NCBI GenBank assembly: GCA_910890315.1
Contig: CAJVGD010000039.1
Location: forward strand, 1-31,397
DNA: 31,397 bases
Direction: 5' to 3'
Source of the DNA: Serendipita indica DSM 11827
Taxonomy: Eukaryota > Basidiomycota > Agaricomycetes > Sebacinales > Serendipitaceae
The notes under the pieces were generated by a model. That model was not told the origin of the DNA. It did not search any database and saw only the letters and a program-made list of their open reading frames with translations. This document shows positions 4,355-31,397 of this stretch, piece after piece; position 1 is the first letter of the stretch; each line of letters begins with the position of its first letter. Position numbers and translations under genes: made by a program.

Positions 4355-5526
4355 ATTGTGCAAGAGGGGTCGGTCGGACAGATGGCGAAGGAATCGAGCG
4401 GCTATGGAGTGGGCATAATCATCTCTCAGGAAGTACGTCAAAGATGACTTACGGAAACCGGCTCGATACTCTCAACCATCACCTACTTGACTGGAACATG
4501 CGCAAGATTCGCCGTATGGGTAAGATGGAGAATTTAGCACGCAAATGCTCATACGCGGTCTAGGTCCTGATCTCCATCAACGACTTATGAAAGCACGAAA
4601 TCAAGTACGGCTGCATTCATCCAACTATGACAAGTTTGCAGATGCATTAGATCCGGTATAAGTTCAGGTATGGACTTATCTAAGTCATAGCTATATAGTT
4701 CTAACTATCTAGAGGCATGGGTTGATCTTGAAGAGAACTATATTCCCTCCGTTGGCCAACAAAGCGTCTACAAGGCGGCTGCTGGAAAAGGTAGGCCCTA
4801 TTGTAATCCAAAGTCAGCTTAAACTAATCGAGCTATTAGAGGCAACCAGAGAAGACATTATTGCGACCATCACTCACAGTGAGATGGGGGACAGTGCCCA
4901 GCCACCACTGCCAAACTTGTCTATCCATGTTCTGTGGATGAACAAAGGACTAGATATTCAGCGGGAACAGTAAGCGCCACATACCACTTTGATGATACTT
5001 GATGCTCGAATGTAGGCGGCGATTACAACTGCGAAGCCAAAAGATCAACAGTGGGGCCATGGAAATAGATCACGACAGGTTGCGGAATTCACGCCAAGCT
5101 CTCTGGATGCGAATAAATGCATGGCGCACACAGGCTCCCGAAGAGGTCCCACAGGTTGACGAAGAAGCTGACTTCGCCCATTGCGACAGCAATCCGGAGG
5201 ATGAAGAACTCATTCTTCCGTCTTCACTCGAAATAGAGTGCAGACCCAAGGATTTCACAAGCGTAGAGATCGAGCTTCGAAAAGGACAGGCCAACCAATC
5301 CCTCCAAACTCTTCGGCGGCTACTCTCCCAACAGCTCGTCCTGCGTCGAGAGGTACGAGTAAGCATTCGGGGACAGCACGCGGCAACTCGTGCAAATGGG
5401 CTCTTCGACAGAATTGGATCTCAGATAAAGGAATCGGCTAATCTTTATCGCTGCGCTCTTTCGGCCATGCATACGCTTGGCATGGATTCCAGATTGCTCG
5501 ACCTTTACCGTGTTAGTTTACACTAG
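4355..5526 (+). pseudogene. 5'-truncated KDZ (Kyakuja-Dileera-Zisupton-type) DNA transposase, C-terminal part
   Basis: Homology begins around 4355 with T-D-G-E-G-I-E-R-L-W-S, a hallmark near the C-terminal third of fungal KDZ transposases, followed by T-Y-G-N-R-L-D-T-L-N-H-H-L-L-D-W-N. A 44-nt intron-like segment (4520-4563, GTAAGA...TCTAG) splices in frame, and another is clear at 4970-5015 (GTAAGC...TGTAG), joining G-L-D-I-Q-R-E-Q to R-R-L-Q-L-R-S. A possible one near 4656-4695 does not keep frame with my model, so a 1-nt shift or a different junction is likely there; a further candidate is 4792-4843. The last exon (5016-5526) holds the family's E-I-E-L-R-K-G-Q-A-N block and a G-Q-x-A-x-T-R-A-N block, then stops. 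The N-terminal two thirds, including the first catalytic carboxylates, are absent, so it cannot be active. No terminal inverted repeats were identified. Confidence 0.7.
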
Positions 5527-6149
5527 TGTACATTGGATATTGTCTGTACATTTCACCCGTAACGTAGCTGTCCAGATTGGACGATGCGTCGCTGGTGGCA
5601 GTGGTCCCTCACTTGATTAATCTACGACCGTTGTGGGGTGAGACCACCGACTCTTTCATACGACCGTTTCTGACGCCCTACGCTAGTTAATCAGACGTTG
5701 TCTATTAGGTAGTGTATTGATTCGGTTAATCTACGACCGTTGTGGGTTAATCAGACGTTGTCTATTAGGTGGCGAATAATACTTAGCTGGGGCGAGCGTG
5801 TTCACCAGTCTAAACCCGCTTATTGACGGAGGGTATCGACGTGGGAGGGTACAGGAATGTCTCTGCTAGTTAAGGCATGTACATAGAGTCTTATATAGCA
5901 AGGGTCAACATTGGAACGAGGAAAGAGCGATGGGAAACGAAGCATGTGCTAAGGCCGTCGCTATGAGGGTATATGCAATAGAGGCTATGAAGAGAAGGGT
6001 GAAGAATGTGATGTGGAAGGGGCAACGAGTGTCACGGGTGCGGTTATGATGTGTGTGACAAGGAGAAATCCTCGAAACCTTACAGGAAACAATGACAAGT
6101 GCGTTCAGAATGGGGACGGAATAGGATACAAAGTTGTAGGAGGGATGTA
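5527..6149. repeat. noncoding stretch with two interleaved direct repeats
   Basis: TTAATCTACGACCGTTGTGG occurs at about 5617 and again at about 5727, and GTTAATCAGACGTTGTCTAT(TAGGT) at 5686-5710 and 5746-5770. The second occurrence of the pair is compact, so an original pair seems to have been duplicated and then shortened. The rest, to 6149, holds no convincing gene; an open frame on the minus strand (5905-6237) looks like chance. It could contain the 3' end of the KDZ element. Confidence 0.6.
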
Positions 6150-6887: not shown

Positions 6888-7704
6888 GTATAAAAGGCGC
6901 TGTAGATAGTCTCCCCTTTGAACAAGATTATTTTTAGAATTATTCCCTCTGTAAGATCGGCAGTATCTCTACCTAAGTTCACACTCAGCAGTCAAACTGA
7001 GACTACTAGTACGCCAACTAGATAGTTTAAACTGACCTAGCGATCAGAATCTTCATAGTGAGTACTCAGAATAGTCTTCTAGCTGACCGCGTTGTGCACC
7101 CTTAGTTACCAAGTATTATACTTGCGTAAATTCATTATTAAATACGTAAATCAGTATGAGCTCTCTCAGATCACGGAAACACCCTTGGGAAAAGGAGAAT
7201 CGCTCCAAGAGTCATAGTAGAATTAATCTGGGAAGTTCTTCGATGTATGCAGGTCGCTCTTATGAGCCTCTTAGTGATCCTGAACGCACTAAGCCTTGGG
7301 ATAAATATGCATCTGACCTAGATGCATTTATTCATGATCCTAATGAGCCTCCTCGCGCTTCACCTCTCAGGATTAAGTTTGACAGTACATTATATGAGGA
7401 TGAGGACGATTATGAAGAGGATTATGACTCTACAGCCATCAAAATAGAAGAGGCTGAGGAGCCTGACACTTTGGCTCGTTTCAGGTCCTTCTCAAGGTCT
7501 CATGGTTCACCTCATGAGCTTGACCCTCAAGCCAAACAAGTGTATCCCAGTTTATCTAAATATACATTTATTCAGAGACCAAGTTCACCTAAGGCTCTAC
7601 AATCTGTATCTGATAACACGGATAGTCATGTCAGCTATAAGGCGTGCCAAGTCGGGGCAAAGAGCCTTTCTAAAGTGACTTTCGTCCCCAACCAGCTCGT
7701 TTGA
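6888..7704 (+). mobile_element. LTR-retroelement-like fossil, copy 2 (leader plus gag-like acidic protein)
   Basis: A TATAAAAGG box near 6888 is followed by a leader of about 260 bp that matches copies 1 and 3 (shared GAACAAGATTATTTT, CTACTAGTACGCCAACTAGAT and GCGATCAGAATCTTCAT blocks), then an open frame from 7156 of 182 residues. The protein starts M-S-S-L-R-S-R-K, has a basic N-terminus, a shared N-L-G-S-S-S-M-(Y/H)-A-G-R-S-Y-E-P-L-S-D-P block, and a strongly acidic D/E-rich middle. Copy 3 matches it closely at residue level. No pol domains follow. This is the best preserved of the three, but incomplete as an element. Gag is my preferred reading; an uncharacterised repeat-encoded protein is possible. 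Confidence 0.45.
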
Positions 7705-8282: not shown

Positions 8283-11200
8283 CTATGAGCTTGTTCGAAC
8301 TTTGGTCCACATTGTCCCACACTGGAAATTAGTGAAATCGAGTTTGGTTGCTCTAAGGTGACTTGAAGTGGGTATAGTCAGAACAAGGCATGGGTGCTTC
8401 AGTCCATAACGATTATTAGGTGGTACCCAGAAGAGGTATTGACCAGAAGACTGCACCCATCCATCAGGCAGCAAAGAACAATCACCAAATCCAGGTATAA
8501 CGAGAACTGGATCAGTGGAAAGAGACTTGATATGGCCAGAGAGACGTGTTCTATTTTGTAGATTACCTACATTTAGCATACGGTCAGTCGCCATAACAAA
8601 CTGATGCTACAAACCAAAGAGACATTCAGAATCAACTCACCGTTGTCCAAGCTCGAGATTTGAATTGTCCTACCAATGGAGCCAGAGACAACTTGTGTGC
8701 CATCTGGTGAGAATGCGAGAGCATTGACTGAGCCTTCATGACCTCGGAGGGGCTCTCCTATTGGCTGGCCAGTCTCTGCATCCCACTGTTGAATTGTCTT
8801 GTCCCAAGAGCCAGAAACGATTCGCGTGCCATCTGGAGAGCACGCAACAGCGTTGACTGAGGATTCATGACCTCGGAGGGGCTCTCCCACTGGCTGGCCA
8901 GTCTCTGCATCCCACTGTCGAATTGTCCTGTCCCAAGAGCCAGAGACGATTCGCGTGCCATCTGGTGAGAATGCGACAGCGTTGACTGAGGATTCATGAC
9001 CTCGGAGGGGCTCTCCCATTGGCTGGCCAGTCTCTGCGTCCCACTGTTGAATTGTCTTGTCCCAAGAGCCAGAGACGATTCGCGTGCCATCTGGAGAGCA
9101 TGCAACAGCGCTGACTGAGTCTTCATGACCTCGGAGGGGCTCTCCCACTGGCTGGCCAGTCTCTGCATCCCACTGTCGAATTGTCTTATCGTCAGAGCCA
9201 GAGACGATTCGCGTGCCATCTGGTGAGAATGCGACAGCGTTGACTGAGCCTTCATGACCTCGGAGGGGCTCTCCCACTGGCTGGCCAGTCTCTGCATCCC
9301 ACTGTCGAATTGTCTTGTCGTCAGAGCCAGAGATGATTCGCGTGCCATCTGGTGAGAATGCGACAGCGTTGACTGAGGATTCATGACCTCGGAGGGGCTC
9401 TCCCATTGGCTGGCCAGTCTCTGCGTCCCACTGTTGAATTGTCTTGTCCCCAGAGCCAGACACGATTCTCATGCCATCTGGAGAGAATGCAACCGCTGTG
9501 ACACCATTCTGATGACCTAACAGCGTTCTGGGAAGCCCAGGAAATGTTTCTTCAACCCCTCTGGTCACTATTAATGAGTTCATGTGCTCGTTTAAACCCT
9601 CCGTACGTAGTAACGACTTCAGTGGAGTGAATGGGAGCGCTGTGATGTAGATATGCGGCGCGCTGTCTTGGATTGGCACAGCAAATGCCATCAAGAACCG
9701 TCTGATGTCATTCATCCGGTCTCTAACCTCTTCCTCGAGCTATTCATTGCTTTAGCAATCGGACGGTTTCAGATAGACCACTCACACTCTTATGTTGCCA
9801 CGCAGCTCGCAGTCCAGATACTGCCTGCATCACTCCTCCAGTCACGCTCAAGATCTCCATCCAATAGAGAGCGAATGGACTCTTGACTATATGCGCCAGC
9901 TCATTCCTTAGCTTGCGTACCCAGTCACTGTCCATTGCGGCCACATGGAACGACCAATGCAAACTAGCATAGCGAAGCCTCCGCGAAATGAATTTCGCCA
10001 CCCGGGCGTCAAGGTCTGTAATCTGCCTATTCAGATAGAAGGATGACTCGATTTGGCAAATATTAAACTTGAGCCCCTCCTTGCGCGATTTGAGAGTGTG
10101 AAGACACCATGATGCTGCTTGGCCATGTGCACGGGCAGTATCAATAGCTATTCCATTGCCGCTTTCTTTATTTCCGGTGATGCAACATCGCCGAAGGTAT
10201 TCGACAAAGGTGGGATGGCGAAACTGGACCAAGTGCGCGATTGGGTCCTCCTTGAGTACACTTCCTAGAACTCGTACCAGCGCATTGGCACTCCCTCGTC
10301 CTTTGGTATGCTTGATAAGATCGTCCAAGTCGTCGCTAGTAAGCGGCTCGCGTGCAGAAAGCAGTATACCGAGCATTTCAACGATGACTGGTTGGGACTC
10401 TTGCTCAATCCGCTCGAAAATCACGTCGTATAGACCGTCGATGGCACCAGGCTCATCGATGGACATCAGGCGATCATATATGACCTCGGTATTGATCACC
10501 GATAACTTGTTGTCGAGCATCCGGCACGCAGTGCTTGCCCAAATAAATAGCCCGTCGGCCTTATTGACCAGTCGCTGCCTCTTATCATAGGCTAGCAGAC
10601 TGCCGAGCGATCGATGGACATAAGTCCCAATGTCATCGATATTATCACGATGGATTGTATCGTGGAGGCGGTCTGTCAACTTGGATTTGATCGAAAGAGG
10701 TTGTAACACTGTTTCGATGACAGGGTCTGGCCGGCTTGTGATGAATATCCGAAGATTCTTACTCTCAGAAGCGGCAGAAGCGAGAGTCTCAACCACTTCC
10801 CTTCTCTGTGGTCCTGACTTTCATTCGTCGAGTGCGTCTAAGACGAGAACTACTCGCATCTGTAGATGCTAGAGGGGACCGGTGATGAGCATTCGGAACT
10901 GCTGATCAAACGAAGCTCGCAGGAGAGCGGAATTCCGTTTTATGACCTCGGCAATCGATGTCCCAAGCTCAGGAATATGTTGAGCGAGTTCCCTCGCTAT
11001 GGTCGAGCAAAACCTTTCGGTGTTTGAGGCTTCGCTGCTTGCCATGGAGAAGAAGAATCCGCCACCTAAGATTCCCTGCTTCTTCCACTTTTCCATCACA
11101 GTCATCGCGACGGTCGATTTTCCAGAGCCAGCTATATCACATAGCCAGAATATCGGTTTTTCTGATGAATCGCCATCGGCCCATTGCGAGATTGTCTCGA

Positions 11201-12687
11201 GGACAACCTGGCGAGTTCCTTGTAGACAGGTGGTATGGACCGAAGATGGGGCGAAGGCGACTATTGGCATCTGAGATATGAAAACCGCATCGTCTTGAAA
11301 ATATGAGTAAACCTTCGTGTACACGAGGTAGTTCATACCTGGTTGAGGGATGGTTCCTCCCTTCACGACGGCTACTCGTGGGTCAGGAATGAATCAGCGA
11401 TGAGTATGTTACGAACTGCGCAAGCTATTCTCCATAAACCATTTTTTGTGCACAGCATCGGGGGCGTTCTCAGCGCACTCCGTGAGATAGTAAGCAACTG
11501 CTTGGTAATCTTCGCTCTCTTCCGTCTGGAATCTGACAAGGTTCTGGTGATCGCTATGGAGTACGATCGCAATAGCGTTTTGATCGCCAGCGATCACCGC
11601 CGAGTGATACGGAACATTCTATAATCCAGTTAACACCCATCCATCAGACGATTCAGTGCACCTACCAGATGTATCTGCTGTTCTTCGGCTCCGGTGCTGT
11701 ATTCCTCGCAGAAGAAGACGCTGTTTATCTTTTTACTCGCGGTGAGATACAAGCTCTGGATGTTTTCGAGTTCATCCGAGTGAGCGTGAAGGTTCTTGGC
11801 AATGACTTCTGTCGATTCCATACATGGTGCTGCCAGGCGAACGATCTTCTTAAGGAGCGTTTCTTCTACGCCGGAATGCGGGGTTCCAAAGAAGAGGATG
11901 GAATGGGTGGATACCACGATATTTCGTAGGCCGTCTTTTGATTCCAGGTCCTCATTGTTGCATATGACAAGCGCCTATGAGACCGTCAGGGTCAAAATGT
12001 AGTGGACATCCTCGGACGAACCCATTTGAGAATGATGCCTCCCAAATCGTGAGCAACAAAGATGATGGGGCGCTAGGGTGATTAGGGAAGAAGGCACCGG
12101 TTTACGGATGCCACTCACTCGAGGAGCATCTTTACGCTTCCGTAAATAGAGCCAGACCGACGGCGTGGCGGCGCATAGTCTGGGTCGATACGCACTCCGT
12201 ACTGTGAGTGTCGGCGTCGTAGCCATAGGTCAGGATACGGGCACGAGGCAATGAGGACGGCAAGAATTGGCGTAGCCAAAGAACGCCATCGTCTGTCATC
12301 CAAGTCTTTTCTCTGTGACCATTCAAGCCGTGGATTGCTATGATACTGGAGTGGGGAGGTCAGCACGAAGCGACTACAGCGCCCCGAATGTGCTTACTCG
12401 ACGGTGGGATCCTCTGGGCATACCAATTCCAGGAATCCAAGGTCTTCCTTCTTGGGTTTGGATGTAGAGGATTTCAATGTTCTAGGATGTTCACTTGCAG
12501 CAGTCCGATCGTTCACTCGTTGCCAAAGTCGGGCAACATAATTTAGGCCTCGTGGAAATGGCCGTGCTTTGCCTTGCTCTTGTGACATTGTGCGCTCTTG
12601 AGTTGTTCGAAGAGTCGATAGTATTGTCTGAACGGGCCTTAGGACGCGCTGTAGGGGTCTTACGGTCCTAGAGGTGTCGGGGAGCAA
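8283..12687 (-). pseudogene. NLR 1: alpha/beta-hydrolase - NACHT - WD40 receptor, inactivated
   Basis: Order on the minus strand: start 12687; hydrolase-like domain (12345 to about 11417; [25 protein letters not shown]); NACHT with Walker A G-S-G-K-S-T, Walker B L-V-L-D-A-L-D-E and F-I-T-S-R-P; seven WD40 repeats; C-terminal exon 8566-8283 with W-V-P-P-N-N-R-Y-G. Introns: 12346-12397, 12073-12118, 11975-12021, 11619-11665, 11372-11416 and 8567-8640; the first five match positions in the second NLR (24552-30032). Damage: a frameshift near 12150, in-frame stops TAG (10869-10871) and TGA (10821-10823, where the Cys after D-E is expected), and a shift near 9716-9746. Cytosolic non-self recognition and regulated cell death is the known role of such NLRs; this copy should not make a full protein unless these are sequence errors. 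The nucleophile position reads A-H-D-L-G-G (Asp codon 12046-12048) instead of Ser. Confidence 0.8.
8645..9535 (-). repeat. seven-unit WD40 array of NLR 1 (129-bp units)
   Basis: Seven consecutive 43-residue units run G-H-E...V-A-F-S-P-D-G-T-R-I-V-S-G-S...T-I-(R/Q)-Q-W-D-A-E-T-G-Q-P-(M/V/I)-G-E-P-L-R. Seven is the number needed for one closed beta-propeller. Units are nearly identical; differences cluster at the residues after G-H (Q-N-G, E-S-S, E-G-S, E-D-S), at A-F/A-C, at G-S-G/S-D/S-W, and at K-T/R-T. The array itself has no stop or frameshift although the rest of the gene is broken, which suggests recent inactivation or homogenisation by gene conversion. Confidence 0.85.
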
Positions 12688-13596: not shown

Positions 13597-13607
13597 GATG
13601 CACATCT
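13597..13607. repeat. LINE target-site duplication, left copy
   Basis: GATGCACATC(T) here equals 19651-19661. The final T cannot be assigned, because it merges with the poly(T)/poly(A) tract that follows directly. Confidence 0.85.
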
Positions 13608-13876
13608 TTTTTTTTTTTTTTTTTTTTTTTTGTGTTAAGTATTATTGTGCAGTGGCACCGCCAATATAGCACATTGTCTAACTGGAGCCCACTTACTGGG
13701 TTACCCTCGGTTTCATTGGCGCGTGCATCTCCTTGAAGGCAGGCAGTTGTCGCTCTCCTCGCCGAGATCTCCCTCTGGGTGTGGCTCTGCTACGCTACTT
13801 TTGCTTGCTTTCAATCGCCTTGACTGTCTGTGAAGTTGGTTTGGTTTCGATACGCGTTGTCTCTCTGGTGAGTTGG

Positions 13877-16800
13877 TTACTCTCTTTCCCTTCCGTTTGT
13901 ATCCTCCCATCCCATCTTCAACCTCCCCGTCCTCCTGATAAACTTCAACATCTCCTTGATTCCCTCCTTTGTCCCTAGTATCTCCGCTGGTTCTCTTGTC
14001 TTCTCACGCAATGCTCCTTCCCATTCGGCTCGCGCTGCATTGTACGCTGGGCAGATGTGGAGGAGATGAGTTATGTTTTCTGCATTTCCCTCTCCACAGT
14101 GTGGGCACCACAGTGCATCCGCTCTGTTGATGCGGTTCAGATGCTTGTTCAGTCCGATATGTCCTGTATGTAGCTGAATAAGTGCCGCTGCTTCTGCTCT
14201 TGTTAGCTCGTCTGTGATTTGGAGATATTTGTTGGATGGCATTGTCTCGTCGATGGGCCTGGTCCTGTTGTACCATGCTGAAGATTTCCACTTGTCGTGT
14301 GCTGACTTCCTTGCTGCAAGTTTGAGTTCCTGTCTGAGTGCCGAGATATTCTGCGGGAGGGTGTCCTTTGTCCATGGTGGGAGTGTTGCTGCTGTGGATG
14401 ATCCATCTGTGATGGCCTTCTTGGCCTCCTCGTCCGCTGCTTCGTTACCCTCGATCCCTTCATGACCTGGGACCCACGTGAGAGTGATCTGAGTCGATCG
14501 ATTGATCCTCGTCTCGTCATCGCTCGCCTCTACGAGTTCTTGTCTACGCTTTTGATCGTTGCGCAGTTCGTCTATTGCTCTGTGGATCTTGTGGATGATG
14601 TGTTGGCCGGCTTTGGCACTGACGTTCTCCATTCCTTGTATTGCTGCCTGGTTGTCGAGGCTGATCTTGATACGTGGTATGATGATCCTTTCCATCTTGG
14701 CTAGCTGGACTCCGAGTGCAATTCCAACGAGTTCTCCTTCGTGTACCGTGTGCTCCGTGTCTTCTCCAAGCAGGAATCTTGCTGACCTTATCCGTACTCC
14801 GTCTCTGTAGAGTACTGCACCTGCTCCTATCATGCCTTCCATTCCTGAGCCATCCGTATAAACTACTACCCGCTCGTTGTTGCCGTTGCTGTTGTTGTCC
14901 GCCTCTTTCGCTAACATCCTCGACTCCTCTATTGAGATAGTGAATGGGTTAGTGGCATTGGGGTTGCGTGATGCTGGGGTGATGGTTTCAAGGTCGTCTA
15001 CTTTGGAGTCGATGGAGTGGAAGATGCGATGTAGGGGGGCGTTGTGCCTCTGGAAGAGTCCTCTTGATGCTCGTTTCACGAATTTGGAGAGAGGATGGGT
15101 AGCGGGCAGGCTTGCCAGCCGGGCCGCCGCCTTCTGGCATGTGAGGCGTAGAGTTTCTTTGATTGGTAGCATATTGAGGTGCGCATCAAGGGTATCTCCT
15201 GCTGTTGTGCGGATAGCGCCTGTGATACCGATGGCGGCTCTACGTTGGACGGCTTGCAGCTTCTTGGTGATGGCTACGGATCCCATCCGGCGTGCGGAGT
15301 CTGGCTTGGTGTACAGTGGGGTGTACCAGATGTCTGCGGCGTATGTGATGCGAGGAATGGCAATGGAGTTGAAGAGTTGGCGGCCTGAGCGGATTGGGAG
15401 GCCATGGAATGCCCTGTGTATACGCGAGAATAGTGAGGTCCACTTTACTGCCCTTGTGTGCACGAGCTCCTGGTGCTTGTTCCACCGCAGTGACTGGTCG
15501 ATCACCACTCCAAGTAACTTGCAACTGTCGGTGGGTTGAATCGTTACTGTTGACGTTCTGCCATTGCTGTCCTTTGCCTCGAGGACCAGGGGATGTGAGC
15601 CTTTGCGCTTTTCGGATGACATGGTGAAGTCGACAAGCCCGAGTTTGTTGTTCTCGAGTGGTGAGTGGTGCGAACGTGACCAGTCTAGTACGCCTCCTTC
15701 ACGTTCCATCATGTCCTTCAGTCCGAGGTGCGTGTCGTGGAAGTTCTGGCCAATGGCGATCAGGGTAGAGTCGTCCACAAACCCGAGGGTGAGCTGGTCC
15801 TTGCCGTTTGCGATCTCCAGTAGTGGGGCAATGTAGAATAGGTAGAGGATCATCGAGAGTGGGCATCCTTGGCTGTTCCCGTTGGTGATAGCGCGGGGTG
15901 CGGAGTGCACCTCGTCGAATTTGAGGCGCGTGGATCTGCCTGTCAGCATGTTCTCGAGAGTCTGCACATACTCCTCTGGGATCCCTTTTGCTCTCATGTT
16001 CTGCATGAGGACTGGCTTGACAACATTGGGGAATGCTGCTTGGATGTCGAGAAACAGTGCGCTGGCCACCTTTGACTCCCTCCATGCCTTCTTGATTGTG
16101 CTTGTGAGAAGGTGAAGGGCGTCCGTTGTTGTCCTTCCTGGTCGACCACCGAACTGAGAGTGTGGGAGCAGTGCATAGTGCTTGGACATGTAGGTGAGGT
16201 CCTCCACCATGAGTGCCGAGAGAAGCTTTCCGAGGGTGTTGAGGAGCGCGATCGGTCGGTACGCTTTGGCTATATTGTACGCTGGCTTCCCTGGCTTTCG
16301 TAGGACCACTGTAGTTGATTCCTTCCACTGCTTTGGAATGTGCCGGAGTCGAATGGCCGCATTGAATACATTCTTGAGGATGGGACTGATAGCTGGGAGT
16401 GCTTCCTGAATTGCTGCATTTGGGATACCGTCCGGGCCTGGTGCCTTGTCGCGCTTGAGACGTCCAACTGCCTTGCTCACCCTCTTTATCGAGTATGGTG
16501 TCCACTGAGGAAGTGCAGTTTGAGGTGCCGGCCTTGGTCTGGGGAGTGCAAGTGCAGGTGGAGGTGGAAAGAATGCGTCGCATAGTAGCTCTGCTTTCTC
16601 CTCATTACTTTGCATTAGTGTGCCGTTTGGCTTTTTGAGTGGGGGGATTCTCTCACTACTTCCATCGTTGGCGCCTCGCTTGATGAAGCGGTTGATGTTC
16701 CATAGGTCGGTGTCGGATGCCTCGTCGATCCACTTCCACCAGAATGCCTCCTTTCTCCTTTGTACCATCTCCTTCATCTCTTGGCACAGTGCCTTGTAAA

Positions 16801-17860
16801 ACTGATGACTTGGGTGGGCTGGGGATGCTTGCCAGTACCGCAACTCTGTGTATGCTTGGCATTTGCATTTGTGAAGATCCTGACATTGCTTGTTCCACCA
16901 CGGCTTGCGGAATGTTGGGTCCTTGCTGAGCGGGGTCGTGTCCTTGAGCTTTGTCTGCATGTAACCTGTGAGTAGCTCGACAAGCTGCTCCAGCTCCTCG
17001 GGGCGCGTTGGTTCGATTGCCAGTCTTGGGTCGTTCTTGACTGCATCTTCCATGCCTTCCCGGAATTTCTCCCAGTTTGTCCTTCTGTAGTTTGGCCTTG
17101 GCGTGATGGCCACTTTCGCAACTGAGAGGTCGATGATGGAGGCGATTGGGATGTGGTCCGTTGTTGTTGGACGAAGGTCTGGCCATGTATTGCACTCTAC
17201 AAGTCGGTGGACAATATCGTCTGATGCCCACACGTTGTCTGGCCTAGTTTGACTCCCGTTCTCCTCTCGTGTGGGTATTCCGGCTGGTAGGAGTTGCTGC
17301 ATGCCGTGTTCGATGATCAGGTTGAGTAGCGGAGTGATGGCATCGGTCGAACTGCGTAGGTGACGGTTGTTGTCCCCCTCCCAGGTGTGGTGGTGCCTGT
17401 TGAAGTCCCTGAGCCATACTTCGAGCCGGTTGGCCCATGTTGACGTATTGCGCGTTTCGAGGTGTTGGGTGAGCTGGTCCAATGTATCGTTGCTGGTGCC
17501 TTTGTTGTAGATGTTGTAGATGGTGCAGAGGCCCGATGCGGTACCCACTCTTATTCCTACAATGTCGCTTGAATCGACGTCTATCTGCATGCACGCACCG
17601 ACGCGTGTGCTGACTAGCGTTACAGCACGTATTCTGCCGTGGCCTTCGTGAGCCTTGGTGGATGGGTAAAACGACTGCCATTTCCTGTTAGCCCGAGTGT
17701 TGCCGAGGGAGTTGAGTGCTGGTTCTTGGATTGCGATAACGTCCCAGTCGTCCGGTGAGGCTGTGTTGATGAATTCGTCGTGGGCGTCAAAGGATTTTCT
17801 GAGGTTGATCTGTATGATTCTTAGATAACTGCTTGTTGTGAGTGGGGTGCCGTTGTTCAT
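13877..17860 (-). CDS. LINE ORF2: endonuclease - reverse transcriptase - RNase H polyprotein (1327 residues)
   Basis: The frame is open from ATG 17860 to the stop at 13877. Domains in order: AP-like endonuclease (residues about 10-260; Q-I-N-L-R-K, A-I-Q-E-P, D-F-N-R-H-H, T-D-H-I-P-I); reverse transcriptase (about 450-740; G-P-D-G-I-P, F-L-D-I-Q-A-A-F, G-C-P-L-S, catalytic F-V-D-D); RNase H (about 1000-1150; Y-T-D-G-S-G, H-E-G-E-L, S-L-D-N-Q-A-A, W-V-P-G-H-E-G-I-E-G-N-E-A-A-D); C-terminal C-P-H-C-G...H-L-L-H-I-C-P knuckle. All catalytic acids are present. One oddity: the usual Gly before the endonuclease D-F-N is Arg. The protein nicks target DNA, primes reverse transcription on the nick and removes the RNA strand; it should act as a nucleoprotein with the ORF1 product. 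It is probably translated from the same transcript as ORF1, about 190 nt downstream of the ORF1 stop. Confidence 0.92.
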   Translation of the reverse strand: MNNGTPLTTSSYLRIIQINLRKSFDAHDEFINTASPDDWDVIAIQEPALNSLGNTRANRKWQSFYPSTKAHEGHGRIRAVTLVSTRVGACMQIDVDSSDIVGIRVGTASGLCTIYNIYNKGTSNDTLDQLTQHLETRNTSTWANRLEVWLRDFNRHHHTWEGDNNRHLRSSTDAITPLLNLIIEHGMQQLLPAGIPTREENGSQTRPDNVWASDDIVHRLVECNTWPDLRPTTTDHIPIASIIDLSVAKVAITPRPNYRRTNWEKFREGMEDAVKNDPRLAIEPTRPEELEQLVELLTGYMQTKLKDTTPLSKDPTFRKPWWNKQCQDLHKCKCQAYTELRYWQASPAHPSHQFYKALCQEMKEMVQRRKEAFWWKWIDEASDTDLWNINRFIKRGANDGSSERIPPLKKPNGTLMQSNEEKAELLCDAFFPPPPALALPRPRPAPQTALPQWTPYSIKRVSKAVGRLKRDKAPGPDGIPNAAIQEALPAISPILKNVFNAAIRLRHIPKQWKESTTVVLRKPGKPAYNIAKAYRPIALLNTLGKLLSALMVEDLTYMSKHYALLPHSQFGGRPGRTTTDALHLLTSTIKKAWRESKVASALFLDIQAAFPNVVKPVLMQNMRAKGIPEEYVQTLENMLTGRSTRLKFDEVHSAPRAITNGNSQGCPLSMILYLFYIAPLLEIANGKDQLTLGFVDDSTLIAIGQNFHDTHLGLKDMMEREGGVLDWSRSHHSPLENNKLGLVDFTMSSEKRKGSHPLVLEAKDSNGRTSTVTIQPTDSCKLLGVVIDQSLRWNKHQELVHTRAVKWTSLFSRIHRAFHGLPIRSGRQLFNSIAIPRITYAADIWYTPLYTKPDSARRMGSVAITKKLQAVQRRAAIGITGAIRTTAGDTLDAHLNMLPIKETLRLTCQKAAARLASLPATHPLSKFVKRASRGLFQRHNAPLHRIFHSIDSKVDDLETITPASRNPNATNPFTISIEESRMLAKEADNNSNGNNERVVVYTDGSGMEGMIGAGAVLYRDGVRIRSARFLLGEDTEHTVHEGELVGIALGVQLAKMERIIIPRIKISLDNQAAIQGMENVSAKAGQHIIHKIHRAIDELRNDQKRRQELVEASDDETRINRSTQITLTWVPGHEGIEGNEAADEEAKKAITDGSSTAATLPPWTKDTLPQNISALRQELKLAARKSAHDKWKSSAWYNRTRPIDETMPSNKYLQITDELTRAEAAALIQLHTGHIGLNKHLNRINRADALWCPHCGEGNAENITHLLHICPAYNAARAEWEGALREKTREPAEILGTKEGIKEMLKFIRRTGRLKMGWEDTNGRERE

Positions 17861-18052
17861 GCAGAGGGGTCGGTTGGCCGGGCATTACTGGTCGCGATGG
17901 ATGGCTGGGTTTGAGCAGGGGGGCAGTGAGGATGGTGAAGAGGTCGTTTCTTGCAATGAATCAGGGGTGGTTTGGGTCTTGGGAGTTGGCCCGGGGTGCT
18001 GGACACTTCGTGCGGCTTGCATTGGGATGCCGTATTGGGCAAGTGTTATCTG

Positions 18053-19527
18053 TCAGTTTTTCGTCTGGTTGATCTTTCTGGACTTGTTGGTGACTCCCTG
18101 TGAGGCGTTGGCAGCCGCCGTTGTGAGCTGCTTGCCTGCTTGTTCTTGCGAGGTCTCAGTCTCGATCTCTGGGCACAGGTATCCCGAGTTCCATGGGGCA
18201 TTGATTGACTTGTTATACGTCCATCGGTCCTTGGTGAAGAAGAATTTGGATCTTGTTTCTGGCGCATGTTCCGCTTGCCTGTCCTGTCTGGACTTGCTTT
18301 CTATGCACCTTTCGTCCCCGGAGGAGTGTTGGCTGGACCCGCATGGGGTGCATTTGGTCTGCATTTTGTCCGGACAGTCCCAAGAGCTGTGCTCTTGCGC
18401 GCAGAATCGGCAGGTGAACCTCTCCGCCGATGTTCTTTTTGCACCTTGACGGAGTGGTTACCAATTCTTGTGGGGCCGAGGATCATGCGGTTGGCTACTT
18501 TGGGTGAGGCGCAGTTGATTTTGACATTGGCATATCCTTGTCCTTCGTACCTCCTTGACGGGTCCTTGATCCAGGATGCGGAGATGATTGAGTGTGGTGG
18601 TAGGCCGTTCTCCAATTCCACCGAGTGCAGGCTTTCCTCTTCGTGGGGGTCGAAGTCCACAGGGACGAAGCGTACCATCAGCTCGTGCACGCAAGGGATG
18701 ACTTTCGTTTCTTCTTCTCTCGAGGTGTAAGCCTCCTTTACCATCTCTGCGCACCTGTTATTCTCCTTTAGCCACTTAGCGGATTTTGCAGAGTCCAGCT
18801 CCAGGAGCGTCCCGGTGCGTATAATGCGCAAGCCTACTATCCGCTTCTTGCTTGCTCCATCCGTGAGTTTCTCTAGCGCTACGTTGAGTGTGTCCTTGTA
18901 AGCGTTGATGTCGTCCCTAGTGTACATTCCTCGTTCCTTTGCGACGGCGCTTGGAGTGTTGAATAGGACTAGTCGTTCCCTAGCGTTGACTATGTTGATT
19001 GCTTTGGCGTCGTCGAGGATGAGGGATTGGCTGAGCTTGGTGCATGCATTGCTTGCTAGTGCTTGGCTGTACAGTCGATGAACTGGTGCCGCCTTGAGAG
19101 CCGTGACCGCTTTGGAAGCTGAGATGGTGAGTTCGCTGTACTTCAAGCTGACGGTGTCCAGGTGCTTGGTGGTTGACTCGATGGTTTGGCTGAGCTTCAG
19201 CTTTGTTGCGTCGACTAGGCTATCGAGTTTTGCAGTAGCTGTCTTGTTGAAGCTTTCGAGGAGAGGGTCCACCGCTGCAGTCTCGAGCACAAAAGAGAAG
19301 GCTTTCAGCATGTGTTTCGCTTCTTGACTCACTCCCGCTTTTTCCGCTGCCTGCCGACAGATGTCCGCCATGAGCACAGTTGTGATGGTCGTGTCGTCCT
19401 CCAACCATCCTCGCTTCTTCATGTATTTGATCGCTGAATCCCTATCGTGTACTATCTCTTTATCTATTCCTGTCATCTCCGACCTCATTTGGCTTCTTCT
19501 CGCTGCTGCGCTCCCTGTCGCTGCCAT
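18053..19527 (-). pseudogene. LINE ORF1 (RNA-binding gag-like protein), one frameshift
   Basis: The first frame runs from ATG 19527 (M-A-A-T-G-S-A-A-A-R-R) to a stop at 18301 (408 residues); the second continues to 18053. The switch is near 18425: just before it the first frame reads V-K-V-Q-K; just after it, the other frame reads F-T-C-R-F-C-A-Q-E-H-S-S-W-D-C, a CCHC knuckle, then C-T-P-C-G...H...C, a second knuckle. Loss of 1 nt explains this. The N-terminal part is helical, with long Ala/Lys/Leu-rich stretches likely to form coiled coils (residues about 85-160). ORF1 proteins of Tad-type elements coat the element RNA; without the knuckles the truncated form would bind it poorly. A sequencing error is the alternative. 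Confidence 0.8.
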
Positions 19528-24551: not shown

Positions 24552-27500
24552 ATGGCCACCGAACAATCAACTTCTGCAATGGCATCCCTGTGGGAATGGT
24601 ATAACTCTATGGATGAGGGCAAATCAAAGATCGATGATCTTGGATTTCGCGAGTTATTCTCAGAAGATAATCCTGTTGTCGAGTACGCAGTCCGCCCGTC
24701 ATTACAACTTAACCGCTGACGTCGCCGCATCAGCATTGTCGCCATCCACGGCTTGAACGGCCACAGAGAAAAAACGTGGACGTCAGAAGATGGAAAAATG
24801 TGGCTGCGCGACTTCCTGCAAGACGACTTGCCTCGTGTTCGGGTCCTCTCTTACGGATATGACGCCGATACGCACAGTCGAGAATGTGTATCAACCGAGA
24901 CCATACATCGGCACGGTGATAAACTAGTCATGGCTCTTTCACGCGAGCGTAAAGACGCTTCTCGAGTGAGCGAATCTTGCTAGTTTGATGGTGTCTGATG
25001 AACCATCATTAGCGGCCAATCATTTTCCTCGCGCACGATGTGGGAGGTATTATCCTCAAATGGGTTCGTATGAACAAGGCTCGATACAAATGGAGCACTG
25101 ACGTCCTTGTAGGCACTCGTAATCTGCAACAATAAGGACCAGGATTCAGATGGAAATCTCCGAGATATTCTGGTATCTACATACTCCATCCTGTTCTTCG
25201 GGACACCCCATTTTGGCGTAGAAGATCCTCTCCCCGGGACAACTGATCGCCTTCTATCAATACCCATGTATACGACAAATGTCATTCTCAAAGTCCTTCA
25301 GCCATACTCACCCGAGCTCGAAAACATACAGAAGCTTTATCTCGAGGTGAGCAAGAAAGTAAAAAACGTATTCTTCTACGCGGAATACGAGGCTCTTGTC
25401 GGAAATCGTCGAAGGAGGCTGGTCAGTATCAAAAGTCTGGAGAACGTGTTGGGCTAAATAGACCACAGAACGTTCGAGCTCACTCGGCAGTCATCCCGGG
25501 TGACCGCAGTGCCGTATGGGAGGTACTACACAGTGACCATCAAACCTTAGTCAAATTCTCTTCTCGAGATAGTGACAACTACAAGACGGTGCTTTTCTAT
25601 CTCAAGGAACATTTCGCAAAAGCTTCACGTGCAGTAGACGACAAGTGGCTCGGTTTGTAACCGCTTAACACTCGAAACGTTTTCTGATCTCACAGGTAGA
25701 TGCCATGAGACAGGACCCCCTCAAAGCAGTTTCTGAGATTTCTCATCTATTCTTTGAGGAAACCATGGTACGGCATGCTTGATGTCACTACGAAGTTTCA
25801 ATCTGATTATGCCGTAGACTATAAACGAGAAGACTAAAGAGTACAAAGTACTCAGGGATAGTCTTGAAGCACATATATCCATCTTGGATGAAGGATATCT
25901 CCAGACAGTCAAGGATGGACATATGGACCAAATGCCTGACGCGCTCAAGGAGTTCAACGATGCATGGAAACATTACATTGTGTACGGTCATGAGTCGAGC
26001 TTTTGAATGTTTGGCTGATATTGTGTAGCACTCTAAGAAACATACTCGCCAGAATGGATGGGTTGAAGCGCAGTAGAGATCAAGGCGTCAAAGGATCTAT
26101 CGAAAAGATCAAGGGCGCCAAATTTGACACAGGAGATATTGCAGACTACAAACAGGAAATCTTACAAGCGACACGCATATGCAAGGTACGAGTACCCGGT
26201 GAAGCCAGGTTTGTATTGAGCTATTTGCAATAGGATGCGGCCAATTTCTGTCAAAATCAGCTGCAAGCGGAAGGTTAGTTTGATTACATCAATCTCCGAC
26301 TCATAGTGATTCTCGACAGTGTGGAAAGTAGCCCGACTCGAGCCCGAAAAGCCTCGTCCAATGGGCACTCAGCACAAGACGTGTCTACCAGGTACACGTA
26401 TAGCGATTCTGCGGGAAATTCGGCAATGGCGTCTGGACCCCAATGCAGACAAGTGCATCTTTTGGCTCTGTGACGTTGGTGGGTCTGGAAAGTCTACAGT
26501 CGCGTTGACAATGTGCGAGGAATGGGATAATACCGAAGGTGTTCTGGTTGGTCGGTTCTTCTTTTCGAAGAACGCTCGTCAGACGTCGGAGACAGATGAC
26601 TTTTGTCCTGTCATCGCAGATGATATCAGTGGTCAAAACAAGATGATCCTGAAGCAAATAAAGACGATCAAAGAAGAAGATCCCAATCTTCCCCGGCGAG
26701 GGCTACGCCATCAGTTCTCTAAGCTGATCGAAGAACCATTGCAGCTTGCAGGGACATATATTGTCCTTGTGATCGACGCAATGGATGAGTGCAAGGAGGA
26801 GATGCGGGGAGAATTGATCAAACTACTGGTTGAGAAGCTTTCATCAATGCCTAAACTCAAACTCTTTATAACGAGCCGGCCAGAGCCAGACATCACGGCG
26901 ATACTCCAGGGTAGAGCGATTGTACGCGGAATGCATTTCAAGATGCACGGCAAAGAGCAGCAGTCCAACTTGGATGATATTAGGTCCTACGTCGACGTAC
27001 ATCTTGTCAAACTGCTTACCGCGCCTCAGCGCCAGCAGATTGTGGAACGCTCAAATGGACTTTTTATTTGGATCACGACAGCACATCTCGAGCTACGAGG
27101 GGCTCATGGTCCGGATGCACTTGGTGCAACTCTCAGATCCCTCTTGACGCGAGGCAAGGGTGGAGATATTAACCAGGTTTATACAAGCATCCTTCGTCGG
27201 CTACGACGAGAGACGTCCAGTGGCACTATACACAAGATTATGGGCACTCTCCTAACCTTGTTCGAACCAGTGTCGACAGAGGCTCTTGGGGAGATGACTG
27301 GGATCGCAGACTCTGAGCTAGAGCCGATCTTAGAGTCGATGCAGAGTGTATTTCGGGTGGATACTGTGGTAGAGTTTCTGCATCCAACGTTCCAAGAATA
27401 CCTTCTCGGTCCACACAATGTGGATATGCCATTCAAGTCGACAGCAATGCAATCAGACTTGGCCGTATCTATCCTCAAAGTGCTTCAGGAGGATCTGAAG

Positions 27501-30032
27501 GAGGACATTTGCGGCATTTCCCTGCCAAACAAACCTTATCCAAAGACTGCAGACATCGTGGATCTGGATGAACGTCTAGAACAATTATGGGCTAGGTCTC
27601 CGGCACTACCTTATGCGGCAAAGTACTGGGGCTATCATGTGAGCACCGTTGTAACGGATGGACATGTTGCCCAGATGCTGCGAAGGTTTTTAGCAAGTCA
27701 AATTTTGTACCTCGTGGAGCTGTTAAGCTTGATGGATCATGTACATCTTATTCGAAATTTCGAGGAGATTCGGCGAAGTTGTGAATACCGAGGGTTGGGT
27801 GATGAGTCCGAGGTGAGCTAGTGCTACATATAATAAGTGTATTGACCGCAGTGACAATAGGTATGCCATGATACAGTTAGACTTGTCCAGAGGCATCAAG
27901 AAACACTAGAGAAGAGTGCGCTGGATATCTACTCTTCAGGGCTACTATTCCTCCCTCGAAAGTCACAACTGTGGACGATATACAAGAGCAAGTTTTCAGA
28001 TCGACTACCAAGAATCATTGGAGGACCATCAGTGCATTGGCCCTCACACCAGACTTTGACTGGACATACCGATTCTGTCCAGTGTCTGGCCTTCTCGCCA
28101 GATGGGCGCCGTCTTGCGTCTGGATCTGGGGATGGCACTGTACGCCTGTGGGATGGGACCACCGGTGCAAGCCTTGGGACGCTTGAGGGACATACCGGTC
28201 CTGTCCAATGTCTGGCCTTCTCGCCAGATGGGCGCCGTCTTGCATCTGGATCTGGGATGGCACTGTACGCCTGTGGGATGGGACCACCGGTGCAAGCCTT
28301 GGGACGCTTGAGGGACATACCGGTTGGGTCCAATGTCTGGCCTTCTCGCCAGATGGGCGCCGTCTTGCATCTGGATCTGGGATGGCACTGTACGCCTGTG
28401 GGATGGGACCACCGGTGCAAGCCTTGGGACGCTTGAGGGACATACCGGAGAGGTCTCGTGTCTGGCCTTCTCGCCAGATGGGCGCCGTCTTGCATCTGGA
28501 TCTGGGATGGCACTGTACGCCTGTGGGATGGGACCACCGGTGCAAGCCTTGGGACGCTTGAGGGACATACCGATTGGGTCCAGTGTCTGGCCTTCTCGCC
28601 AGATGGGCGCCGTCTTGCATCTGGATCTTGGATGGCACTGTACGCCTGTGGGATGGGACCACCGGTGCAAGCCTTGGGACGCTTGAGGGACATACCAATT
28701 GGGTCCAGTGTCTGGCCTTCTCGCCAGATGGGCGCCGTCTTGCATCTGGATCTGGGGATCGCACTGTACGCCTGTGGGATGGGACCACCGGTGCAAGCCT
28801 TGGGACGCTTGAGGGACATACCGGAGAGGTCTCGTGTCTGGCCTTCTCGCCAGATGGGCGCCGTCTTGCATCTGGATCTCAGGATCGCACTGTACGCCTG
28901 TGGGATGGGACCACCGGTGCAAGCCTTGGGACGCTTGAGGGACATACCGGAGGGTCTCGTGTCTGGCCTTCTCGCCAGATGGGCGCCGTCTTGCATCTGG
29001 ATCTGGGATGGCACTGTACGCCTGTGGGATGGGACCACCGGTGCAAGCCTTGGGACGCTTGAGGGACATACCAGTGAGGTCTCGTGTCTGGCCTTCTCGC
29101 CAGATGGGCGCCGTCTTGCATCTGGATCTGGGGATCGCACTGTACGCCTGTGGGATGGGACCACCGGTGCAAGCCTTGGGACGCTTGAGGGACATACCAG
29201 TCCTGTCCAGTGTCTGGCCTTCTCGCCAGATGGGCGCCGTCTTGCATCTGGATCTGGGGATGGCACTGTACGCCTGTGGGATGGGACCACCGGTGCAAGC
29301 CTTGGGACGCTTGAGGGACATACCAGGGTCCAGTGTCTGGCCTTCTCGCCAGATGGGCGCCGTCTTGCATCTGGATCTTGGGATGGCACTGTACGCCTGT
29401 GGGATGGGACCACCGGTGCAAGCCTTGGGACGCTTGAGGGACATACCAGTCCTGTCCAGTGTCTGGCCTTCTCGCCAGATGGGCGCCATCTTGCATCTGG
29501 ATCTGGGGATGGCACTGTACGCCTGTGGGATGGGACCACCGGTGCAAGCCTTGGGACGCTTGAGGGACATACCAGTTGGGTCCAGTGTCTGGCCTTCTCG
29601 CCAGATGGGCACCGTCTTGCATCTGGATCTCGGGATCGCACTGTACGCCTGTGGGATATCACCACCCCACCCAGTTTGGAACCTCCTTATGCACTCAATC
29701 ATGCTCCCAGGCATTTATATTTCTTCCAAGGTGGACATTTCTTACATGTGGACAATGGACCAGTACTCAATGTCTCCCACAATCGCCTTCAGTCACTCTC
29801 ATCTCCATGTCCAAGTGTCACGCCCAGCCATGAGCATTCCACAGTAGCTGTTGACTACACCAGTCAGGAGCTGTGGTCTGTTTGTTGTCCATACCGTAGA
29901 TATCGGATCCCTGATGAGTTTCGGCTGAGGTGCTCCACCAAATCCCAAGATAAAATCGCCCTAGGTCTGCAGAATGGACAGGTCATGGTCATTGATTTTG
30001 CAAAATTTTCTGACCCACATACCCAATTGTAA
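24552..30032 (+). CDS. NLR 2: alpha/beta-hydrolase - NACHT - WD40 receptor, 11-exon model, WD40 array frameshifted
   Basis: Exons: 24552-24682, 24734-24965, 25013-25063, 25113-25421, 25469-25652, 25700-25767, 25818-25981, 26029-26185, 26234-26273, 26320-27812, 27861 onward. All ten introns are 46-51 nt and every junction keeps frame. Residues about 44-300 are hydrolase-like ([14 protein letters not shown] with Asp, codon 25037-25039, for the usual Ser, F-F-G-T-P-H-F-G-V); about 302-445 a helical linker absent from NLR 1; 499-505 Walker A G-G-S-G-K-S-T; Walker [10 protein letters not shown] near 26770; [16 protein letters not shown]. Then 13 WD40 units and a C-terminal tail to 30032. As written, the first 1-nt loss in unit 2 leads to a stop at 28434-28436, giving 1134 residues with about 2.6 repeats; total loss over units 2-8 is 6 nt, so units 9-13 return to the first frame. 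Such NLRs are cytosolic non-self sensors that trigger cell death. No disrupted splice site or NACHT residue is seen. Confidence 0.85.
28062..29672 (+). repeat. 13-unit WD40 array of NLR 2 (126-bp units with recurrent indels)
   Basis: Units start with GGACATACC at 28062, 28188, 28313, 28438, 28563, 28688, 28814, 28940, 29064, 29190, 29316, 29439 and 29565. Lengths are 126, 125, 125, 125, 125, 126, 126, 124, 126, 126, 123, 126 bp, the last unit diverging at its end. The 125-bp units lack one G in a G-run (GGATCTGGGATGG against GGATCTGGGGATGG); the 124-bp unit lacks a second base near its start; the 123-bp unit loses one codon. Elsewhere units are almost identical. Variation sits in codons right after G-H-T (D-S, G-P, G-W, G-E, D-W, N-W, S-E, S-P, S-W) and in the S-G-(S)-x-D-(G/R)-T turn (G, W, Q, R). 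Confidence 0.9.
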
Positions 30033-30378: not shown

Positions 30379-31397
30379 GACTCATCTGTGCATCATTTGG
30401 CTAGAAATATTACCACCAAAGCCACAATTGTGCTCACATTGTGATCTAATGTATAGCAAGGATTTGTTGATACAAGGATGTGTGAGTTGTTATCAGATAC
30501 AAATTGTAGAGCCTTAGGCAAACTTAGTCTCTGAATAAAATGTATCTTTAGATAAGCTGGGATACACTCTTTTGGCTTGAGGGTCAAGCTCTTGAGGTAA
30601 ACTACAAGGTCTTGAGAAGGACCTGAGGCATGCTAGAGGGTCAGGCTCTTCAGCTTCTTCCATCTTGATGGCTGTAGAGTCATACTCCTCTTCATATTCA
30701 TCCTCATCTTCATATAATGTATTGTCAAACTTGATCCTGAAAGGAGAAGTATGAGGAGGCTCATTAGAATCCTGAATAAATTCATCTAGGTCAGATGCGT
30801 ATTGATCCCAACGCCTAGTGCATTCAGGATCACTAAGAGGCTCATAAGAGCGACCTGCATGCATTGAAGAACTTCCTAGATTAATTCTGTTATAATTCTC
30901 TGAGCAATTCTCCTTTCCCCAAGTGGGCCTCCGTGCTCTGATAGAGCTCATATTGCGATATATTGATCCAAGTATTTAATTACACAAGTATATTACTTGG
31001 GAAAATTCGTGTGCACACAGTGCTGTCAGTAAGAAGACTATCTTAAGTACTCACTATGAAGATTCTGATCGCTAGGTAAGTTCAAACTATCTAGTTGGCG
31101 TACTAGTAGTCTCAGTCTGGCTGCTGAGTGTGAACTTAGGTAGAGATACTAATGATCTGACACAGGGAATAATTGTAAAATAAATCTTGTTCGTACTAGA
31201 CATGTTTCTACAGGCCTTATATACCTATTCTAAGTGGCAGTGAGACTGTGCCCACAGTTACACAGTGTACTGTGCACACAGTTCGCAGTACCTTGTCTAG
31301 ACTGTGCCCACAGCTGGAGCACTGTGAGCCCAGTTACATTACTAAGCTTGACATGAGATGAGATTGAAGGATGACAAGTGTATTTGGGCATGAGTTC
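30379..31397 (-). mobile_element. LTR-retroelement-like fossil, copy 3 (gag-like protein plus leader, runs off the window)
   Basis: A minus-strand frame from ATG 30951 (M-S-S-I-R-A-R-R) matches copy 2 closely through the N-L-G-S-S-S-M-H-A-G-R-S-Y-E-P-L-S-D-P block and the acidic middle; coding-like sequence continues to about 30393. The leader (30952 to about 31225) has a TATATAAGG box near 31217-31225 and the same blocks as the other copies. Beyond it, to the window end, the upstream part resembles copy 1 with repeated CTGTG(C/G)(C/G)CACAG-like words, but not copy 2. The copy is broken, with few breaks, and looks younger than copy 1. No pol region is present inside the window. Confidence 0.45.

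Follow-up and report, generated by a model that had tools for sequence, protein, structure and literature searches.

A fungal NLR gene of Serendipita indica with a diversified near-identical WD40 array and deposited frameshifts that fall in its variable codons

Introduction

Fungal immune receptors (NLRs) with a sensor built from near-identical repeats are an already known gene type, and the gene described here is a further member of it. The closest described systems are HET-E, HET-D, HET-R and the NWD proteins of Podospora anserina, in which a NACHT domain is followed by near-identical WD40 units that undergo concerted evolution. According to the sections of PMC12222747 used here (presumably Ament-Velasquez et al. 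2025), the variable WD40 positions of Podospora are 10, 11, 12, 14, 30, 32 and 39, which show high dN/dS, and short-read assemblies fail to recover such arrays reliably. The same sections describe a het-d repeat that lacks one base in a small homopolymer run, a deletion judged a likely misassembly, and another het-d allele with two stops that are supported by reads. A second group, the SesB-like (alpha/beta-hydrolase) fungal NLRs covered in the consulted part of PMC4986451 (which we take to be Dyrka et al. 2014), carries a predicted lipase/esterase domain before the NOD. For WD40 proteins in general, the excerpt of PMC3419727 (in all likelihood Wu et al. 2012) locates the hot spots of the top face at R1-2, R1 and D-1 by the rule (V,L,I)-R1-R2-(V,L,I).

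Here we describe a gene in a window of 31,397 nucleotides, the whole stretch of DNA analysed, which is contig C38 of the S. indica DSM 11827 assembly. Like the Podospora receptors, it combines NACHT with near-identical WD40 units showing concerted evolution, and the spacing of its variable codons 4, 5, 7, 23 and 25 fits positions 11, 12, 14, 30 and 32. Unlike in Podospora, codons 3 and 32, corresponding to positions 10 and 39 in a register inferred from this spacing, barely vary; the N-terminus is DUF676-like, the deposited array is out of frame, and many near-identical paralogues lie near contig ends. The gene shares the predicted lipase/esterase domain before the NOD with the SesB-like NLRs in the consulted part of PMC4986451, but has AHDVGG, with Asp in place of the Ser of the GHSxGG-like motif, and WD40 repeats instead of the TPR of the exemplar given there. 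A similar WD40 consensus was also found in highly repetitive bacterial WD40 proteins, with 52-65% identity in the best segment (best 80 of 582 confirmed loci, these 80 all being bacterial).

Architecture of the gene

The gene is a fungal-type NLR of the order DUF676, NPHP3_N/NACHT and WD40 on the plus strand, with short introns and with the repeat array as its 3' part. Its N-terminal exons (24552-25767; segments 24552-24682, 24734-24965, 25013-25063, 25113-25421, 25469-25633 and 25696-25767, splice sites placed by eye) encode, in the spliced translation, a DUF676 domain of the alpha/beta-hydrolase, SesB-like kind (Pfam PF05057, E 5.7e-5). This was the sole Pfam match of the N-terminus at E up to 0.01, and no HET domain was found there. 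The initial annotation had compared the locus with NLRs of the HET-E/HET-D type; its assignment to the fungal NLRs (NPHP3_N/NACHT plus WD40) holds, whereas the DUF676-like N-terminus without HET makes the gene NWD-like rather than a HET-E/HET-D gene itself.

The NACHT exon (26319-27818) is one open frame of 500 aa with matches to NPHP3_N (PF24883, E 2.4e-22) and NACHT (PF05729, E 1.2e-7), i.e., the nucleotide-binding domain that a fungal NLR (STAND NTPase) requires is present. This exon is open and constrained, as the paralogous exons on contigs C7, C14 and C4 align to it gap-free with pN/pS values of 0.16-0.32 among the four copies. It is followed by the linker to the array (27869-28061), which is gap-free against the other 14 family loci described below, the alignment for C15, C1 and C29 spanning 191 of the 193 bases only. 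Downstream of the array, the C-terminal tail (29652-30032) is open up to the stop codon at 30030-30032, is gap-free in seven of the other 14 family loci and could conceivably hold cryptic blades. Single-sequence AlphaFold2 modelling of units 9-13 plus tail gave five models, the best of which shows five four-stranded blades with a 10-residue mean pLDDT of 84-94 across residues 1-170 and below 50 in the tail; the other four models were poor (mean pLDDT 31-41).

Esterases usually have a Ser nucleophile in a GxSxG-type motif, where the DUF676-like domain carries Asp in AHDVGG (exon 25013-25063). The same AHDVGG is found in the paralogues on C35 and C7, the Ser motif being absent from all three copies, and the C39 copy was matched by neither pattern. 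With Asp at the expected nucleophile, the domain is possibly no active esterase and may be a non-catalytic signalling domain. Across the genome, the DUF676-like domain gave 192 exon-level matches.

Elsewhere in the window, a second NACHT-WD40 gene lies on the minus strand (8573-11366), with seven WD40 stretches of 129-nt units in one open frame; its NACHT match crosses two stops (TGA and TAG), so that it is either spliced there or broken. A LINE-type retrotransposon, likewise on the minus strand (13877-19527), has an open frame of 1327 codons that encodes an endonuclease, a reverse transcriptase and an RNase H, a 408-codon frame upstream, and 25 T at 13607-13631 as a poly-A tail would give; its open frames suggest a recent insertion. 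In addition, two similar predicted proteins in opposite orientation, MSSLRSRKHPWEKEN... (7156-7704, plus) and MSSIRARRPTWGKEN... (30514-30951, minus), gave no match in a Pfam search.

Paralogues in the genome

Searching the genome (24.7 Mb, 55 contigs) at the DNA level with one unit and with the upstream gene yielded 14 more loci whose unit, linker and tail are the same (C35, C39, C7, C14, C4, C15, C21, C27, C1, C29, C16, C34, C10 and C13), giving at least 15 paralogues in one genome when C38 is included. Besides these, a distant relative is located on C40 (70% identical) and a partial copy without array on C51. Among the retrieved family loci, the N-terminal part of C38 was matched over its full length only in C35, C39 and C7, and a different short N-terminal sequence is common to C14, C4, C21, C27, C15, C1, C29 and C16 (frames judged by eye). 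Thus, the family has at least two kinds of N-terminus, which indicates that N-termini have been exchanged among the paralogues.

On nine contigs known to measure at least 480 kb, all six family loci are no more than 25 kb away from a contig end, compared with two of 47 other NACHT loci (drawn from 91 scored of 218 candidates). Furthermore, the gene is oriented toward the nearby contig end in all 12 family contigs longer than 50 kb. That the family is subtelomeric stays a guess, since three consecutive copies of the telomere repeat TTAGGG are found nowhere in the assembly.

The WD40 array in the deposited sequence

Tandem Repeats Finder (TRF) reported a single array at 28062-29657 (period 126, 12.7 copies, 94% match, score 2772), and cutting it at GGACATACC gave 13 units, the first starting at 28062 and the 13th fused to the C-terminal tail. 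The 13 near-identical WD40 units of the initial annotation were thereby recovered. The array covers 28062-29680 on the plus strand, with units of about 126 nt, each in-frame unit being one 42-residue WD40 repeat with variable codons 4, 5, 7, 23 and 25. Mean protein identity among the six full-length units is 0.917 (lowest pair 0.857) and mean DNA identity 0.948. In the consulted part of PMC4986451, a repeat domain of high internal conservation is one that is over 85% identical across at least 100 aa, and the C38 array belongs to this class, with five contiguous in-frame units at 29064-29651.

A continuous open frame across the 13 units, as implied by the initial annotation, is absent from the deposited sequence. 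Units 1-12 measure 126, 125, 125, 125, 125, 126, 126, 124, 126, 126, 123 and 126 nt, and five of them (2, 3, 4, 5 and 8) are off-frame. Units 2-5 (28188-28687) have 125 nt each with a gap at codon 23, and unit 8 (28940-29063; 124 nt) has two gaps, both inside variable codons. The frame entering from the NACHT/linker side (ORF 28032-28436) is lost in unit 2 and terminates at the stop codon 28434-28436. The WD40 frame is resumed over units 9-13 (29064-29651), of which unit 11 lacks three bases, and runs through the tail to 30032. Near-identical repeats are hard to assemble, and the frame break is therefore most likely assembly-related. In its deposited form, the C38 array cannot be used for counting or comparing units.

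The stop at 28436 can also be taken at face value. The locus would then be a true pseudogene: real frameshifts would have originated in a single unit or a small number of units, unequal crossing-over or conversion would have spread them, and the product would be a NACHT protein truncated after about two blades. Consistent with spreading, units 2, 3, 4 and 8 have the same shortened codon-23 segment, and units 2-4 are adjacent as if copied. Against decay of this gene stands its NACHT exon, which is constrained and gap-free relative to C7, C14 and C4. We consider a true pseudogene unlikely, albeit an alternative that carries real weight.

Variation among the units

Differences between units concentrate in codons 4, 5, 7, 23 and 25, counted from the G-H-T, and are otherwise scattered over partly silent sites. 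The initial annotation had named three variable codons; the concentration in few codons was right, while their number is five and the scattered, partly silent sites have to be added. Reading the sequence rule onto V6-Q7-C8-L9 and D24 identifies codons 5, 7 and 23 as R1-2, R1 and D-1, i.e., as top-face positions. In the C38 array (six in-frame internal units), the five codons have a piN/piS of 3.43 and the remaining ones of 0.39, and across the family (103 units) the values are 1.51 and 0.35; by array, the variable-codon value ranges from 0.81 (C27) and 1.12 (C34) up to 26.9 (C4). These are simple counts, and since the five codons were picked for varying, the contrasts are inflated and descriptive rather than a selection test (C15 and C39 unit 11, which has an in-frame stop, were omitted). 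The excess of replacement changes at variable surface codons that the initial annotation had anticipated is thus seen in C38 and in the family as a whole, with C27 as an exception.

Moreover, units within an array are more alike than units of different arrays, as expected under concerted evolution. Framework differences per site amount to 0.0345 within and 0.0536 between arrays, and variable-codon differences to 0.388 and 0.482, respectively, with none of 2000 permutations giving as large a contrast in either case. Among the ten closest arrays, the framework gap is small (0.0162 within vs 0.0192 between; 1 of 2000 permutations). The five variable residues occur in 91 distinct combinations among 104 family units. 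Overall, the interpretation of the initial annotation, concerted evolution with diversification, is well supported.

Placement of the frameshifts

Over the 15 arrays, 36 of 156 internal units are off-frame, spread across eleven arrays (counted without the final unit of each array and without the distant array on C40). After merging neighbouring gaps, we counted 49 frame-shifting events, comprising 46 deletions and three insertions (doubled units of C39, 230 nt, and C15, 264 nt, were left out of the alignment, and the end gaps of C21 unit 10 and of three C39 units were left unplaced). Forty-four of the 49 fall in codons 4-7 or 23-25, that is, in 21 of the 126 columns (binomial P 5e-29), and such an event is present in all but one of the eleven affected arrays. 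All six frame-shifting gaps of the C38 array lie inside variable codons and hence belong to the same pattern as the codon variation. The concentration is complete in the seven arrays that are gap-free in linker and tail (C38, C14, C4, C21, C27, C10 and C13): all 36 placed events are in codons 4-7 or 23-25 (19.7 per kb), and neither the remainder of the unit nor the 4,018 bases of linker and tail contain any. 'Gap-free' refers here to linker and tail alone, as C21, C27 and C13 have gaps in the NACHT exon.

This placement is what consensus errors would produce, because read conflicts arise only at codons that differ, and real decay would not pick the variable codons. We therefore favour consensus errors, a reading that the gap-free, constrained NACHT exons of C38, C7, C14 and C4 also support and for which the likely misassembled het-d repeat of Podospora offers a precedent. 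Neutral decay is expected to hit the whole unit, in contrast to the 36 of 36 events confined to 21 columns. An in-frame stop by substitution occurs in just one of 105 full-length units, C39 unit 11, which is what a pseudogene would show, yet it is a single case. Framework piN/piS is 0.00-0.39 in nine of the eleven arrays with off-frame units (higher in C7, 0.70, and C1, 0.71), compared with 0.59 and 0.49 in C29 and C34, where every internal unit is in frame; this speaks against decay.

Several observations weigh on the other side. Nine paralogues (C39, C29, C1, C35, C21, C15, C27, C16 and C13) have frame-shifting gaps in the NACHT exon, as true pseudogenes would, and several family tails carry gaps too. 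In the NACHT-exon alignment, 11 of 18 deletions adjoin polymorphic columns against a background of about 42%, which is no clear excess. Furthermore, for 9 of 41 shortened segments no full-length allele in the same array gives a match. The NACHT-exon gaps, the tail gaps and these nine segments count against consensus errors, and genuine decay may have affected some paralogues, or assembly quality may be low more generally. Because three of the seven key loci (C21, C27 and C13) have NACHT-exon gaps, the pseudogene was weighted slightly up and consensus error slightly down.

In favour of consensus errors, sixteen of 32 traceable shortened segments are a common subsequence of at least two alleles of the same array, compared with 27% under random deletion confined to the same codons (P 0.002; C15 omitted). 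Matching with compressed homopolymers accounted for 31 of 41 segments and was not separated from chance (P 0.07). For the codon-23 stretch, 46 units have TCTGGGGAT and 11 have TCTGGGAT. Plain homopolymer error as the sole cause is ruled out by four constant GGG runs (majority context), which show no contraction in 154 units. Array homogeneity correlates with brokenness (Spearman 0.60, P 0.023; 14 arrays, without C15).

Consensus errors could also stem from a collapsed dikaryon or heterokaryon, a version that overlaps with the favoured reading: two nuclei with different arrays would have been merged, and the consensus would have lost the differing bases. Both the concentration of events in variable codons and the preponderance of deletions (46 vs three insertions) fit such a collapse, but mixing among units or paralogues yields the same picture, and we regard this particular version as improbable, a little more so than a true pseudogene. 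If it holds, the deletions would be a footprint of allelic diversity within the isolate.

Alternatively, the indels might be real and aimed in vivo at the variable codons, e.g., by repair of mismatched heteroduplexes during conversion between units, leaving a reservoir of broken arrays. The same codons take indels and substitutions in 10 of 11 affected arrays, and the family lies near contig ends, as such a process would allow; consensus conflict, though, accounts for the same placement without new biology, and we give this process very little credence. An extension would make the contig-end, perhaps subtelomeric, family of broken receptors a donor store, in which recombination mutates or deletes target-contacting codons and conversion continually re-makes intact arrays, comparable to the use of broken VSG copies by trypanosomes; we hold this to be highly improbable too. 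The account of Podospora long-read alleles in the sections of PMC12222747 used here, which names two disrupted het-d alleles, offers no precedent for aimed indels.

In the C39 array, units 5-8 (contig positions about 5147-5740) have many small deletions, constant codons included, and the NACHT, N-terminal and tail exons of this contig have gaps as well, so that it resembles a poorly polished one. In control arrays of another WD40 family with 129-nt units (C2, C37, two on C1, and window positions 8573-9715), six of 64 units are not 129 nt long, and five of these six are off-frame; their gaps lie partly in variable columns and are too few for a placement test.

Discussion

Taken together, we consider it likely, if short of certain, that the C38 array, with its diversified top face, serves a fungal NLR as ligand sensor, and that the deposited frameshifts are consensus errors. 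Consensus error, with haplotype collapse as one version, carries the most weight, followed by a true pseudogene and, last, by an aimed in vivo process. From the gap pattern alone we infer the error mechanism, and the binding role and the downstream signal likewise from sequence and analogy. The receptor would consist of the DUF676-like N-terminal domain, the NACHT ATPase switch and WD40 blades that form one or two propellers. Recombination would homogenise the units while the top-face codons are diversified, and, judging by HET-E and HET-D of Podospora, the order and content of the units would determine the target of the receptor. For an assembler or polisher, reads would conflict solely at sites that differ between units, paralogues or nuclear haplotypes, and bases would be dropped there. 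If the deposited frameshifts are consensus errors, the real gene is probably open and functional. A HET-E-like sensor that is live seems plausible, with allorecognition or pathogen sensing, as suggested in the initial annotation, as candidate roles.

A live receptor would add to the known NLRs a large family near contig ends that has swapped its N-terminal domains and diversified its top face at nearly the codons of Podospora. Should the frameshifts be consensus errors, such errors strike precisely the codons that matter for function; annotation pipelines would in that case label these sensors as pseudogenes, and population surveys would mistake error for diversity. An accumulation of gaps in variable codons offers a simple diagnostic that can be applied to other assemblies.
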